From Kibdelosporangium persicum (GTDB taxonomy: Bacteria; Actinomycetota; Actinomycetes; Mycobacteriales; Pseudonocardiaceae), in NCBI RefSeq assembly GCF_013280595.1, contig NZ_JAAATY010000001.1, positions 439,987 to 503,986 on the forward strand: a stretch of 64,000 nucleotides of DNA, in the 5' to 3' direction. The translations under genes were made by a program, and so were the position numbers. The notes under the pieces were generated by a model. The model was not told where the DNA came from. It did no database searches and saw nothing but the letters and a program-made list of their open reading frames with translations. This document shows, piece by piece, positions 8,321-48,122 of this stretch (its first letter is position 1; the number at the start of each line of letters is the position of its first letter).

Positions 8321-9553
8321 ATGGACAACCACCAGACGTTTGGGGAACGGGTGAATTCCACTATTCGGCTAGAGGCGCCCGCGTACGAGGTCGTGCCGGA
8401 TCTCGGGCCGGTCCCGGCCGCACAACAGCCCGAATGGCACGACCTCCCGCATCTGGCACGGGTCCGTGCCAAGCTCGCCGCCGAGCCGGGACTGGTGCGA
8501 GCAGATCATGTGGACTTGTTGAAGTCGGCGCTCGCCGGCGTGGCCCAGGGCAGGGCACACGTGCTGCAGGCGGGCGACTGCGCCGAGGACCCGGCTCATC
8601 GGACGCGAGGACACGTCTCCCGCAAAACAGCGTTGCTGGATCTGTTGGCGGGCACGCTGAAACTCATCGCCGGCAAGCCGGTGGTCCGCGTCGGCCGGAT
8701 CGCCGGGCAGTTCACCAAGCCCAGGTCGGTGGGCGTCCAGGTGGTCGGTGGGGTCGAACTGCCGGTCTACCGAGGCCACATGATCAACGCTCCTGGTCCC
8801 GATCCGGAGAGCAGACGGCCGGACCCTGACCGGATCCTCGAGTGCTACCGCGCCGCGCACGAGGTGATGGGACATCTCGGCTGGTTTGACGGCATCGGCC
8901 AGGCGCGCGTGGACGCGCCCGTCTGGACCAGTCATGAGGCGCTGCTCCTGGACTACGAGATACCGATGGTCCGGCAGGACGGCCCGGGCCGTCCGGTGCT
9001 GGCGTCCACGCATTGGCCGTGGATCGGCAACCGAACGCGCCAGGTGGACGGTGCGCACGTCGCACTGCTCGCTCAGGTGCGTAATCCGTTGTCCTGCAAG
9101 GTGGACGCGGATATCACCGTGGACGAGTTACTGGCGTTGTGCGAACGGCTCGATCCCGGCCGTGAGCCCGGCAGGCTGACTTTCATCTCACGCATGGGCG
9201 CGGAAATCGTCGCCGATCGGTTGCCGCCGCTCGTGGTCGCGGTGCGAGACGCGGGCCATCCGGTCGTCTGGCTGTGCGATCCCATGCACGGCAACACGAT
9301 CCGTACGCCGGACGGGCTCAAGACCCGGCTGGTGGACACGATGGTCCGTGAGGTCACCGAGTTCCAGACGGCTGTCACCGCGGCCGGTGGCGTGGCGGGC
9401 GGCGTGCACCTGGAGACCACCACCGAGGACGTCACCGAGTGCGTGACCGACGAGTCCGAACTGGACCGTGTCGGCGACAGATACACCAGCTTGTGCGATC
9501 CGCGGCTCGCCCCGGCCCAGGCGGTGGCCGTGGTGTCCGCGTGGCGCGGATGA
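8321..9553 (+). CDS. Class II DAHP synthase (PhzC type)
   Basis: A 410-residue class II 3-deoxy-D-arabino-heptulosonate 7-phosphate synthase, first step of the shikimate pathway (PEP plus erythrose 4-phosphate). Diagnostic stretches are AAQQPEWHDL near the N-terminus, VLQAGDCAED, VRVGRIAGQFTKPRS and WLCDPMHGNT. It lacks the longer N-terminal extension of housekeeping plant-like enzymes and resembles PhzC, which boosts chorismate supply in phenazine clusters. ATG 8321 is used; GTG 8315 and GTG 8351 (after GGGGAACG) are alternatives. It is the first gene of the operon behind the SARP-type promoter and overlaps the next reading frame. Confidence 0.9.
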   Translation: MDNHQTFGERVNSTIRLEAPAYEVVPDLGPVPAAQQPEWHDLPHLARVRAKLAAEPGLVRADHVDLLKSALAGVAQGRAHVLQAGDCAEDPAHRTRGHVSRKTALLDLLAGTLKLIAGKPVVRVGRIAGQFTKPRSVGVQVVGGVELPVYRGHMINAPGPDPESRRPDPDRILECYRAAHEVMGHLGWFDGIGQARVDAPVWTSHEALLLDYEIPMVRQDGPGRPVLASTHWPWIGNRTRQVDGAHVALLAQVRNPLSCKVDADITVDELLALCERLDPGREPGRLTFISRMGAEIVADRLPPLVVAVRDAGHPVVWLCDPMHGNTIRTPDGLKTRLVDTMVREVTEFQTAVTAAGGVAGGVHLETTTEDVTECVTDESELDRVGDRYTSLCDPRLAPAQAVAVVSAWRG

Positions 9554-9582
9554 CCCGGCAGACAAGGCAAGGAGGTCCTGCG

Positions 9583-10917
9583 GTGTTCTCGACCGCGGCC
9601 GATGTGTGCGACTGGCTCGCCGAACGGCGGGCGATCAACGACTACCGCGTCAAGGAGGTCCCGCTCGATCAGCTGGACGGCTGGCGCATCCGGGACAACG
9701 GCGACATCGGGCACCGCACCGGCCGGTTCTACACGGTCACCGGACTCGAGGTCACCGGCGCCGACCGGCCGGTCGGCAGCTGGCAGCAGCCGATCATCGA
9801 CCAGCCGGAGATCGGCATCCTCGGCATCGTGGTCAAGCGGTTCAACGGGGCGCCGCACTGCCTGTTGCAGGCCAAGATGGAGCCGGGCAACGTCAACATG
9901 CTCCAGCTCTCGCCGACCGTGCAGGCGACCAGGAGCAACTACACCAGGGCACACGGCGGCAAGCCGGTGCCGTACCTCGACTACTTCCTTGCGCCACGGC
10001 GCGACAGCGTGCTGTTCGACGCGCTGCAATCCGAACAAGGCGCATGGTTCCTGGCCAAGCGCAACCGCAACATGATCGTCGAGGTGACCGGTGACGTGCC
10101 GGTGCTGCCCGACTTCTGCTGGGTGCGGATGGACGATCTCGGTGAGCTGTTGCGGATCGACAACCTGGTCAACATGGACACCCGGACGGTGCTGTCGGGT
10201 GCGGCGAGCCTGCGTCAGGTGTCCGGCGAGGCCGCGCAACGCCCCCGGCACACCGTCGCCGAGCTGCTCAGCTGGTTCACCGAGGCCAAGGCGCGCAGTT
10301 CGATGAAACGGCGGCGAATCCCGCTGGCCGAGGTGTCCGGCTGGGCGCACGAGCACGGGATGATCAAACACCACCAGGACCGGCACTTCGCCGTGCTGGG
10401 ACTGGAGGTCCTGGCCAGCAACCGGGAAGTCACCGGGTGGTCGCAGCCGATGATCGCCCCACGCGGCTACGGCGTCGTGGCGTTCCTGTCCAAACGGGTC
10501 CGCGGCACGCCGCACCTGTTGATCCAGGCCAGGATGGAGGCCGGTGCCTTCGACGCGATCGAGATGGCCCCGACCGTGCAGTGCATCCCGGACAACTACC
10601 GGGACCTGCCGGCCGGGCAACGGCCGCACTTCCTCGACGAGGTGCTGTCGGCCCCGGAGTCCCGGATCAGGTTCGACTGCGTGCACTCCGAGGAGGGCGG
10701 CCGGTTCTACCACGCGCAGAACCGCTACATGCTGGTGGAACTGCCGGAGGACGCGCCAGAGCCGGACCTGCCGGAGAACTTCGTCTGGATGACCCCGCGG
10801 CAGCTGATGGGGTTCGTCCGGTACGGCAACCACCTCAACGTCGAGGCCCGCAGCCTGGTGGCCTGCCTCGGCCTGTCCGCCGACAGCCCGGCACTACAGG
10901 GAAGGAGCGTCGCATGA
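9583..10917 (+). CDS. NDP-hexose 2,3-dehydratase (EvaA-like)
   Basis: A 444-residue protein with two homologous halves, as is usual for dTDP-4-keto-6-deoxyhexose 2,3-dehydratases. Each half repeats a pattern ending in a lipid-like core: [20 protein letters not shown] and [24 protein letters not shown] stretches, followed by SPTVQAT / APTVQCI. GTG 9583 is chosen because AAGGAGG lies 7 nt upstream; ATG 9550, overlapping the previous stop, is the alternative. Known members remove the C-2 hydroxyl of dTDP-4-keto-6-deoxyglucose, giving a 3,4-diketo sugar for the aminotransferase encoded next. The overlap with that gene (ATGA) suggests coupled translation. Confidence 0.9.
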
Positions 10918-47223: not shown

Positions 47224-47247
47224 GGCCCGGCTCGCGTGAGCCGGGCC
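47224..47247. terminator. Bidirectional terminator
   Basis: GGCCCGGCTC (47224-47233) and GAGCCGGGCC (47238-47247) form a perfect 10-bp stem with a GCGT loop between the convergent lyase and thymidylyltransferase genes. Confidence 0.88.
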
Positions 47248-47249
47248 GT

Positions 47250-48122
47250 TCAGCCGAGTTCCCTGGCGATCGCCATCACGTACTGGCCGTAGCCGGACTT
47301 GGCCTGGCGTTCGCCCAGTGCGTAGCAGGCCGCGGCATCGATGAATCCCATCCGCAGCGCGACTTCCTCCAGGCACGCTATCCGCACGCCCTGCCGGTGC
47401 TCCAGGGTCTGCACGTACTGCCCGGCGAGCAGCAACGACTCCGGGGTCCCGGTGTCCAGCCAGGCGAAGCCGCGGCCCAGTTCGACCAGTTTCGCCCGGC
47501 CCCTGGCCAGGTAGACCTTGTTCACGTCGGTGATCTCCAGTTCGCCACGGGCGGACGGCTGGATGTTCTTGGCGATGTCGACGACCTCGTTGTCGTAGAA
47601 GTACAGTCCGGTGATGGCCCGGTTGGACCGCGGGTGGGCCGGTTTCTCCTCCAGCGACAGCAGTTTTCCGTGCTCGTCGGTCTCGCCCACGCCGTAGCGC
47701 TCCGGATCGTGCACGGGGTATCCGAAAAGGACACAGCCGTCGATGTCCCTGGCGCTTTCGACCAGCACGTCGGAGAAACGCGGGCCGTGGAAGATGTTGT
47801 CGCCGAGCACGAGGGCCGCGGAGTCGTCGCCGACGTGGTCCGCGCCGATGACGAAGGCCTCGGCGAGACCGTTCGGTTCGTCCTGCACCGCGTAGTCCAG
47901 GTTCAGGCCGAAGTCCGAGCCGTCGCCCAGCAGCCGCTGGAACTGCGGCTGGTCCGGTCGGGTGGTGATGATCAGGATGTCCTGGATGCCCGCCAGCATC
48001 AGCACCGACAGCGGGTAGTAGATCATCGGCTTGTCGTTCACCGGCAGCAGTTGCTTGGAGACCGCCAGCGTGATCGGGTGCAGCCGGGTGCCGGATCCTC
48101 CGGCGAGGATGATCCCCTTCAT
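47250..48122 (-). CDS. rfbA: Glucose-1-phosphate thymidylyltransferase
   Basis: A 290-residue nucleotidyltransferase starting [26 protein letters not shown] is the nucleotide-binding signature, [18 protein letters not shown] and [10 protein letters not shown] are the substrate-binding blocks. It makes dTDP-glucose, entry point to the deoxysugar branch. ATG 48122 is preferred to TTG 48131. It is the last recognisable cluster gene on the right and is transcribed towards the lyase. The following enzyme, dTDP-glucose 4,6-dehydratase, is not in the window and is probably encoded elsewhere. Confidence 0.93.

Follow-up and report, generated by a model that had tools for sequence, protein, structure and literature searches.

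How does one stretch of an actinomycete genome come to hold genes for 3-hydroxyanthranilate (3-HAA), nitrous acid, prenyl units and a branched amino sugar side by side, and what might such a combination make? The question was raised by a preliminary description of 64,000 nucleotides of Kibdelosporangium persicum (contig NZ_JAAATY010000001.1, positions 439,987 to 503,986; this whole stretch is the window, and coordinates below are positions within it), which proposed one cluster for a glycosylated prenyl-arene whose amine is diazotised or removed. Our reading, to which we attach a probability of roughly 0.7, is that window positions 7315-48122 constitute a single biosynthetic cluster for a glycosylated prenyl-arene, in which nitrite would act through an adenylate (AMP)-forming ligase and the source of that nitrite is exchangeable among relatives, the chemistry being deduced from enzyme families. 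The best evidence here is that two unrelated nitrite systems stand beside one clade of ligases, and therefore the ligase of this clade probably uses nitrite.

Gene calling by codon usage gave 52 genes in the window, of which 50 were run against Pfam and 30 against NCBIfam. The calls and family matches show 3-HAA, nitrite, ligase, 2-C-methyl-D-erythritol 4-phosphate (MEP)/prenyl, UbiA and EvaA-E-like sugar genes in the conserved block. Every block named in the preliminary description (phzC/D/E, an EntA-like short-chain dehydrogenase/reductase (SDR), CreE, CreD, the ligase, MEP genes, UbiA, EvaA-E, an N-methyltransferase and a glycosyltransferase) is present within a few bases of where it had been placed, and its gene list is to be extended by a quinone-reductase/SRPBCC fusion, an MpaB-type oxygenase, a PhyH dioxygenase, an amine-oxidase-fold flavoenzyme and an IS701-type gene. 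Of the extent it gave, 8321..48122, the right end holds and the left end has to be moved, since the block begins at least one gene earlier, with a regulator of the Streptomyces antibiotic regulatory protein (SARP) type at 7315-8112. The genes for 3-HAA and for the making and proposed use of nitrite are as follows.

8315..9553, + strand: class II 3-deoxy-D-arabino-heptulosonate 7-phosphate (DAHP) synthase, PhzC-type (PF01474, 402.8 bits); 77% in the genome of the same genus (G027), 62% in a second compared genome (G131)
12056..12709, + strand: isochorismatase, PhzD-type (PF00857)
12706..14598, + strand: 2-amino-2-deoxyisochorismate (ADIC) synthase type, PhzE-type, chorismate-binding plus GATase domains (PF00425 + PF00117)
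14602..16149, + strand: 515-aa fusion of a medium-chain dehydrogenase/reductase (MDR) quinone oxidoreductase and an SRPBCC domain (PF00107/PF08240 + PF10604)
16182..17741, + strand: AMP-forming ligase of the Pzm18/CreM kind, proposed to activate nitrite (PF00501); 65% to a 527-aa (Pzm18-size) protein of locus L164
17738..19672, + strand: CreE-type L-aspartate N-hydroxylase (PF13454)
22001..22762, + strand: EntA-type SDR, proposed dihydro-3-hydroxyanthranilate (DHHA) dehydrogenase giving 3-HAA (TIGR04316, 327 bits against a cut-off of 300)
45822..47207, + strand: CreD-type nitrosuccinate lyase (NF052556)

Judged by their families, the PhzC-, PhzE- and PhzD-type enzymes with the EntA-type SDR would convert chorismate to 3-HAA; no PhzF or PhzA/B/G family of the phenazine genes was among the Pfam matches of the 50 scanned window genes. 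CreE would then oxidise aspartate to nitrosuccinate and CreD would free nitrite from it, and the key residues of both are kept. The single PDB sequence match of CreE at an E-value of 1e-5 is 8cp2, a solved aspartate N-hydroxylase (671 bits, 57% identity), and 11 of the 12 residues of the arginine-rich aspartate site that are named in the consulted text of PMC10404684 are identical, the outer Arg597 being the exception. CreD reaches 627 bits with the nitrosuccinate lyase model, just under the curated cut-off of 650 and with the next best model at 385, and its top PDB sequence match is CreD itself (5xny). Its loop SSAMPQKRNP (287-296) supplies Ser287, Lys293 and Asn295 as counterparts of the reference residues Ser302, Lys308 and Asn310 and fits the consensus SSxMPxKRNP quoted for nitrating lyases in PMC13411527; Arg326, counted by hand, lies at the same spacing as reference Arg341. 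A second CreE homologue (38%) is found elsewhere in the K. persicum genome (G000, C37:47730-49601, L002).

Nine aligned ligases were scanned against 84,980 species genomes, yielding 183 relatives, and the best 80 of the 183 (61-68% identity) were scored over 10 kb on either side of the ligase for CreE/CreD (at least 45% identity) and the nitrate reductase NasC (at least 50%), each over 30% of the query. CreE/CreD occurred without NasC at 27 of these 80 loci, NasC without CreE/CreD at 14, both at 19 and neither at 20, so that nitrite genes of one kind or the other lay within 10 kb at 60 (44 of the 52 loci with full flanks, where the four classes numbered 18, 12, 14 and 8). CreE and CreD were both near the ligase at 43 loci. 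We estimate that NasC would fall by chance within 10 kb of a given gene in fewer than 1% of genomes, for an 8-Mb genome with one to three copies. Among the eight full-flank loci with neither system, CreE was found 12-16 kb away in four (L113, L138, L166 and L180), with CreD beside it in two, and about 4.6 Mb away in L121; L122, L136 and L184 had no CreE at E-values up to 1e-100, and a further 20-40 kb per side held no NasC or CreE in L122 and L136. A ligase scan of viral contigs returned no relative.

The second nitrite system, as it stands in G131, lies between the 3-HAA genes and the ligase. It consists of a nitrate/nitrite transporter of the NarK type, an assimilatory nitrate reductase scoring 757.8 bits against a cut-off of 1100, and two proteins that correspond to the first half of NirB and do not contain its siroheme half. 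These four extra genes had been guessed from their sizes to be a hydrazine module (lysine N-oxygenase, cupin-MetRS), which was rejected when NCBIfam assigned them to nitrate transport and reduction instead. The same block occurs in G562, G176, Streptomyces fumanus and Streptomyces sp. LHD-70, and without NarK in G117 and G012a (ligase identity only 48% in the latter). In G131, G562, G176, G117, S. fumanus (G1070) and LHD-70 (G1067), the NasC of the cluster is additional to others located elsewhere in the genome. No CreE was found at an E-value of 1e-80 in G562 and G176, and the best in S. fumanus is 38% identical. In such relatives, nitrate transporter and nitrate reductase would feed the same ligase clade, replacing CreE/CreD or working alongside them.

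On a quick ligase tree of 88 rows (28 of 85 inner branches starred), 78 rows were scored; ten short-flank loci without nitrite genes were left out, and G562 and G117 were omitted as the same loci as L139 and L170. The presence of CreE/CreD changes at least 12 times on this tree and that of NasC 11 times. The four states together change 20 times, compared with a minimum of 33 in 100 shuffles, evidence that the nitrite source is inherited as well as repeatedly changed. A two-by-two count of CreE/CreD against NasC gave an odds ratio of 0.38 (p 0.058), and 0.20 (p 0.003) after four of the "neither" rows were re-scored; neither figure is corrected for kinship, and the second is biased because wider stretches were used only for "neither" rows (L113, L122, L136, L138, L166, L180) and UbiA clusters (L159, L182).

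Several observations weigh against our reading. CreE/CreD and NasC showed no significant relation in an independent-pairs test run over the ligase tree, and 6 of the 78 scored loci have no nitrite genes nearby. The G131 genome has no CreE at E-values up to 1e-20 though its ligase, UbiA and 3-HAA genes are kept, which is why the nitrate-reductase block must itself count as a nitrite source, and in G117, of the nitrate-reductase type, a CreE of 51% is present elsewhere in the genome. A 3-HAA gene lies within 10 kb of the ligase in only 23 of the 80 loci, although this flank is too short to judge the linkage, given that a distance of 35-50 kb separates the 3-HAA genes from the ligase in S. fumanus. 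The nine clusters' ligases do not form one clade but occupy at least four positions in the tree, so that the ligase, or entire modules, must have passed from one cluster to another, and a substrate can be carried over from the penzonemycin (pzm) cluster with less confidence. The window contains no called dTDP-glucose 4,6-dehydratase (RmlB), the genome not having been searched for one. The window ligase scores 85.9 bits with the AvaA6/CmaA6-type diazotase model NF058622, against a cut-off of 975, and its relation to CreM is indirect: it shares 65% identity with the ligase of Pzm18 size in L164, and Pzm18 is 48% identical to CreM (PMC9323291, Table 3).

It may be, then, that the ligase is an ordinary carboxylate-activating enzyme which adenylates 3-HAA or makes its coenzyme A (CoA) ester, as occurs in benzoxazole pathways, and that the nitrite genes belong to a different step or a different cluster. 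Its best NCBIfam matches are generic CoA ligases (124 bits), its best PDB sequence matches are CoA ligases as well (at most 95 bits), the loci without nearby nitrite genes would fit, and the 88 aligned ligases carry the motif YGQSE throughout and an A10-kind lysine motif in 85. Set against this, the ligase has no AMP-binding_C match in Pfam, 82 of the 88 have Thr at the A10 position where we take CoA ligases to have Gly, and the clade tracks two unrelated nitrite sources. In addition, the pzm authors read Pzm18 as a homologue of CreM (PMC9323291). In CreM, E352 is a conserved Mg-binding Glu (PMC11705231); the equivalence of the Glu in YGQSE is assumed from the motif. On balance we regard a plain ligase as quite unlikely, and prefer a Pzm18/CreM-type ligase that would use ATP and nitrite to form a nitrosating agent acting on a 3-HAA-derived arene.

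The nitrite nitrogen may then be kept in a diazo group, lost together with the amine, or used to aminate the ring. The fusion at 14602-16149 would act after nitrosation. An SRPBCC protein lies within 10 kb of the ligase in 72 of the 80 loci and a quinone reductase in 62; the two are fused in two of these loci (L175 and L185, the latter from Nocardiopsis sp. CC223A) and also in G027, whereas in L164 they are called as separate genes of 334 aa (quinone reductase) and 151 aa (SRPBCC). Because they are naturally fused in the window gene, the two proteins are suggested to act together. A homologue of an FAD_binding_3 monooxygenase (L147:11581-12771) occurs near the ligase in 31 of the 80 loci, none having been seen in the window. 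A second ligase (57%) lies about 34 kb from the first in S. echinoruber (L222:14003-15529, G1086:C17), and two ligases also occur in L164, G355, G176, Streptomyces sp. B-S-A12 and LHD-70.

One possibility is that diazotisation is followed by loss of N2, making 3-HAA a detour to 3-hydroxybenzoate, in the manner of the avenalumic and p-coumaric acid (ava/cma) pathways. This logic has been demonstrated for ava/cma in the account given in PMC10777205, and an NADPH-type reductase, the MDR half of the fusion, is the very partner found near the ligase in those 62 loci. However, no clear homologue of the reductase AvaA7 was among the matches listed for the 30 window genes (the best is the EvaE-like gene, at 23.1 bits against a cut-off of 400), the SRPBCC partner would be left unexplained, and penzonemycin retains its nitrogen atoms, with an acylated amine kept at C-2 and an N-N unit at C-4 of penzonemycin A (PMC9323291). 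We therefore consider N2 loss unlikely for this product. The preliminary proposal of an amine diazotised or removed is upheld in so far as nitrite acting on the arene is concerned, and remains tentative as to the amine's fate.

The pzm authors ascribe the C-4 nitrogen to an unknown transamination (PMC9323291). This otherwise unexplained nitrogen, together with the fact that reduction of a quinone oxime would need a reductase such as that in the fusion, leads us to entertain a bolder and rather improbable scheme in which ligase, SRPBCC protein and quinone reductase form a module for nitrite-dependent ring amination. Here 3-HAA would be nitrosated at C-4, the resulting o-nitrosophenol (o-quinone oxime) reduced, and the 2,4-diamino-3-hydroxybenzoate so formed prenylated and glycosylated, whilst in clusters with two ligases, such as pzm, this newly introduced amine would go on to be diazotised. 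Aspartate and a cluster nitrate reductase that lacks an accompanying nitrite reductase would be interchangeable sources of the nitrite.

The prenyl and sugar genes are as follows.

36272..37216, + strand: IspH (LytB)
37309..38307, + strand: polyprenyl diphosphate synthase (PF00348; alignment of nine)
38321..40123, + strand: DXS (TIGR00204, 573 bits against 466)
40117..41265, + strand: IspG (GcpE) (TIGR00612, 419 bits against 280)
43507..44478, - strand: UbiA-family prenyltransferase (PF01040, 58 bits against 34)
9583..10917, + strand: NDP-hexose 2,3-dehydratase, EvaA-type (PF03559, 536 bits); a 49-82% homologue in eight other clusters
10914..12026, + strand: DegT/EryC1 sugar aminotransferase, EvaB-type (PF01041, 383 bits); 71-82% in four of the eight other clusters (G027, G131, CC223A, Nocardiopsis chromatogenes)
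22796..23530, + strand: methyltransferase, proposed sugar N-methyltransferase (PF13649, family level); 58% in CC223A, between the EvaB and EvaD homologues
23530..24150, + strand: dTDP-sugar epimerase, EvaD-type (PF00908)
24150..25064, + strand: sugar ketoreductase, EvaE-type (PF01370, 125 bits)
27053..28162, + strand: EryCIII-type glycosyltransferase (PF06722 + PF21036); 60-67% in S. fumanus, S. africanus, B-S-A12 and CC223A
44614..45825, + strand: sugar C-methyltransferase, EvaC-type (PF08484 + PF08421)
47250..48122, - strand: RmlA glucose-1-phosphate thymidylyltransferase, the right end of the block (TIGR01207, 440 bits against 361); 85% in G027

DXS, IspG, IspH and the prenyl synthase would provide a prenyl diphosphate for UbiA to attach to the ring. 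Both Asp-rich motifs of UbiA are invariant in all nine aligned cluster versions. The prenyl synthase has a small residue (Ala in the window; Ala, Gly or Val among the others) five positions before DDxxD, which by a chain-length rule would presumably allow C20 or longer. Its second Asp-rich motif reads DDLID in the window, G027, G131 and Nocardiopsis, and lacks the last Asp in the four Streptomyces versions (DDLIG, DDIIG or DDVIG). The EvaA-E set of the 4-epi-vancosamine type is complete in the window at family level; these enzymes, with the methyltransferase and RmlA, would make a branched 3-C-methyl amino sugar to be attached by the EryCIII-type enzyme. RmlB-like genes were recognised by Pfam in the S. 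fumanus and CC223A clusters.

A further possibility is that two or three neighbouring clusters, a meroterpenoid glycoside pathway and a nitrite/3-HAA module, have become adjacent by chance. The module does occur without UbiA in other genomes, and the G027 cluster has no CreD, a CreD of 74% being present elsewhere in that genome. In the window, however, a single + strand run (8315-19672) mixes genes of the sugar, 3-HAA and nitrite sets: its eight genes follow in the order phzC, EvaA, EvaB, phzD, phzE, fusion, ligase and CreE, no gap between them exceeding 32 bases and three neighbouring pairs overlapping by 4 bases; EvaC and CreD also overlap by 4 bases. Moreover, eight other genomes likewise carry UbiA (61-83%), EvaA and the ligase together, in differing gene orders, so that chance adjacency seems very unlikely to us.

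In G027, g08-g37 and g39 are collinear with the window at 67-94% identity (84% for the ligase), and only CreD is missing. Given this collinearity, and the recurrence of the UbiA/EvaA/ligase core in seven further genomes, the gene content is more than a chance assembly. The claim of a single cluster for a glycosylated prenyl-arene, with nitrite acting on the arene, thus gains support from the interleaved same-strand run, from joint conservation and from the ligase clade's tracking of two nitrite sources.

Searched in 297 genomes of the family, a sample of a larger group, UbiA reached at least 60% identity, besides the window, only in G027 (83%) and G131 (67%), although 84 of the 297 have some match at 1e-10. 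It was found at 62-68% in 6 of 12 genomes picked from the ligase scan, namely S. fumanus, S. africanus, B-S-A12, LHD-70, CC223A and N. chromatogenes. Their clusters contain MEP genes, prenyl synthase, EvaA and ligase, that of N. chromatogenes being split over two contigs on which IspG was not seen. The sugar genes are patchier: the stretches from S. fumanus, S. africanus, B-S-A12 and LHD-70 showed no EvaB-type aminotransferase of at least 71% (the S. africanus and LHD-70 contigs end nearby), EvaC is present in the first three of these strains, S. fumanus also has a GFO/IDH/MocA-type reductase, and G131 has no match to EvaC, the methyltransferase, EvaE or MpaB within 120 kb. From the shared prenyl genes and the patchy sugar genes, the common core of these products would be the prenyl-arene, with the sugar varying.

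Other UbiA families are also found near ligases. In three neighbourhoods (L092-L096; G127, G100 and G088), a UbiA of about 44% is accompanied by two DegT genes and a ligase of 38-39%, with CreE and CreD near in G127, and another type, with two ligases, a 38% UbiA and 3-HAA genes, is present in G027 (L104, L111; C1:3915000-3943000) and G009 (L089-L090).

Regulatory, transport and additional oxidative functions make up the rest of the block.

7315..8112, - strand: SARP-type regulator (Trans_reg_C + BTAD in Pfam); 77% in G027, 62% in G131
19718..20527, - strand: second SARP-type regulator, kept in G027 and G131
20769..22016, + strand: IS701-type DDE gene, with a 16-base overlap with the gene that follows (NF033540, 295 bits against a cut-off of 150)
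25068..25988, + strand: MpaB/Lcp-type oxygenase (PF09995); 54-55% in S. fumanus, S. africanus, B-S-A12 and CC223A
26037..26840, - strand: PhyH-type Fe/2-oxoglutarate dioxygenase (PF05721); 60% in CC223A
28183..29484, + strand: amine-oxidase-fold flavoenzyme (PF01593); 62-64% in G131, S. fumanus, S. africanus, B-S-A12 and CC223A
29685..31289, - strand: major facilitator superfamily exporter, QepA/LfrA-like (PF07690; NCBIfam scores below cut-offs)
31323..31964, - strand: NADPH-dependent flavin mononucleotide reductase (PF03358)
32093..35359, + strand: large SARP/NTPase/TPR regulator
35572..36198, + strand: DUF2306 membrane protein (PF10067), with a match in G027 and none in G131 or the six named-strain clusters
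41366..43504, + strand: LuxR-type regulator with AAA domain

The right border is placed at 48122 because nothing to the right of RmlA matched in 80 kb of G027, and in G131 the sole match is a partial one (39%) to the glycoside hydrolase g51; the left border is placed with less certainty, as the compared G027 stretch starts inside g06. The IS701-type gene overlaps the EntA-type gene by the same 16 bases in G027, and 18 of the 80 loci have a homologue (34-58%) no more than 10 kb from the ligase; homologues occur in several UbiA clusters too. Across 22 homologues, D169, D213 and D370 are conserved at 95%, and no Glu reaches 90%; the gene is possibly a domesticated transposase. In the pzm table, pzm10 is annotated as a transposase (PMC9323291). 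Outside the block, a 752-aa YcaO protein lies near an acyl-CoA-dehydrogenase-like gene on the left (581-4141). On the right are meta-cleavage genes (53334-56863; hydratase, acetaldehyde dehydrogenase and DmpG-type aldolase) beside an IclR regulator, with no match in the compared G027 and G131 stretches, and then three large same-strand glycoside hydrolase genes (56922-63998; GH2 + AbfB, GH76, and GH127 + ricin-type lectin domains), the GH127 gene being cut by the window end.

It is also conceivable that the product is already known and was reported without its gene cluster or in a less accessible journal. The cluster type occurs in named strains (S. fumanus JCM 4477, S. africanus NRRL B-24243 and N. 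chromatogenes YIM 90109), which would allow for this, but no prenylated, glycosylated 3-HAA or diazo product was among the open-licence PubMed Central (PMC) matches listed, and we give this explanation a modest, clearly minority chance. Nor did those matches describe the nitrite, prenyl and branched amino-sugar blocks together, the CreE/CreD nitrite route itself being known. The preliminary statement that no product with this combination has been described thus stands within those matches, and the combination is not peculiar to this genome. Conservation in named strains means that the product can be sought at once, and sister clusters with different nitrite sources would allow labelling with 15N-nitrate and 15N-aspartate to be compared.

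The same matches contained no description of an exchange of nitrite sources in diazotase clusters. Exchange of CreE/CreD for a nitrate-reductase block offers an independent handle on which ligases use nitrite, and the 14 of 80 ligase loci that have the nitrate-reductase block only point to clusters that a search for CreE/CreD alone would miss.

Of the known systems, we know of no prenyl or sugar branch in the cremeomycin (cre) cluster, and no sugar or nitrite genes are known to us in that of diazepinomicin, a compound with a 3-HAA-derived part in which an ABBA-type prenyltransferase acts on the benzodiazepine. Diazepinomicin resembles the product proposed here in its prenylated ring system (PMC3871700). 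The cre cluster (CreE, CreD, CreM) shares with the window the aspartate-nitrosuccinate route and an AMP ligase acting on an aminohydroxybenzoate (PMC11705231), and differs in its arylamine substrate. The ava/cma clusters likewise supply nitrite from CreE/CreD homologues to a diazotase of the AMP-ligase type, but do so with a type II polyketide synthase and the AvaA7 reductase (PMC10777205). Closer still is pzm, from the penzonemycin A and B producer Streptomyces sp. SCSIO 40020, for which Table 3 of PMC9323291 gives 3-HAA genes, CreD, CreE, a quinone reductase (334 aa), an SRPBCC protein (180 aa), a CreM-type ligase and a transposase gene. Also in that table are an acetolactate synthase and a further ligase; UbiA, MEP and sugar genes are absent from it, and the quinone reductase and SRPBCC protein that are fused in the window are separate there. 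L164, from Streptomyces halstedii ISP-5068, is likely the pzm orthologue: called sizes of 527, 622, 406, 161, 334, 659, 126 and 198 aa match the table and three differ (524 for 560, 151 for 180, 1138 for 1128), the stretch ending inside CreD before the 3-HAA genes are reached. It shares 65% (ligase), 68% (CreE) and 59% (CreD) identity with the window. Finally, the alanosine (aln) clusters, in which a nitrosohydroxylamine is made on an aliphatic amino acid without a ligase, provide a precedent for the exchange proposed here, in that those without the aspartate route carry nitrate and nitrite reductases, suggested in PMC11705231 to supply the nitrite.

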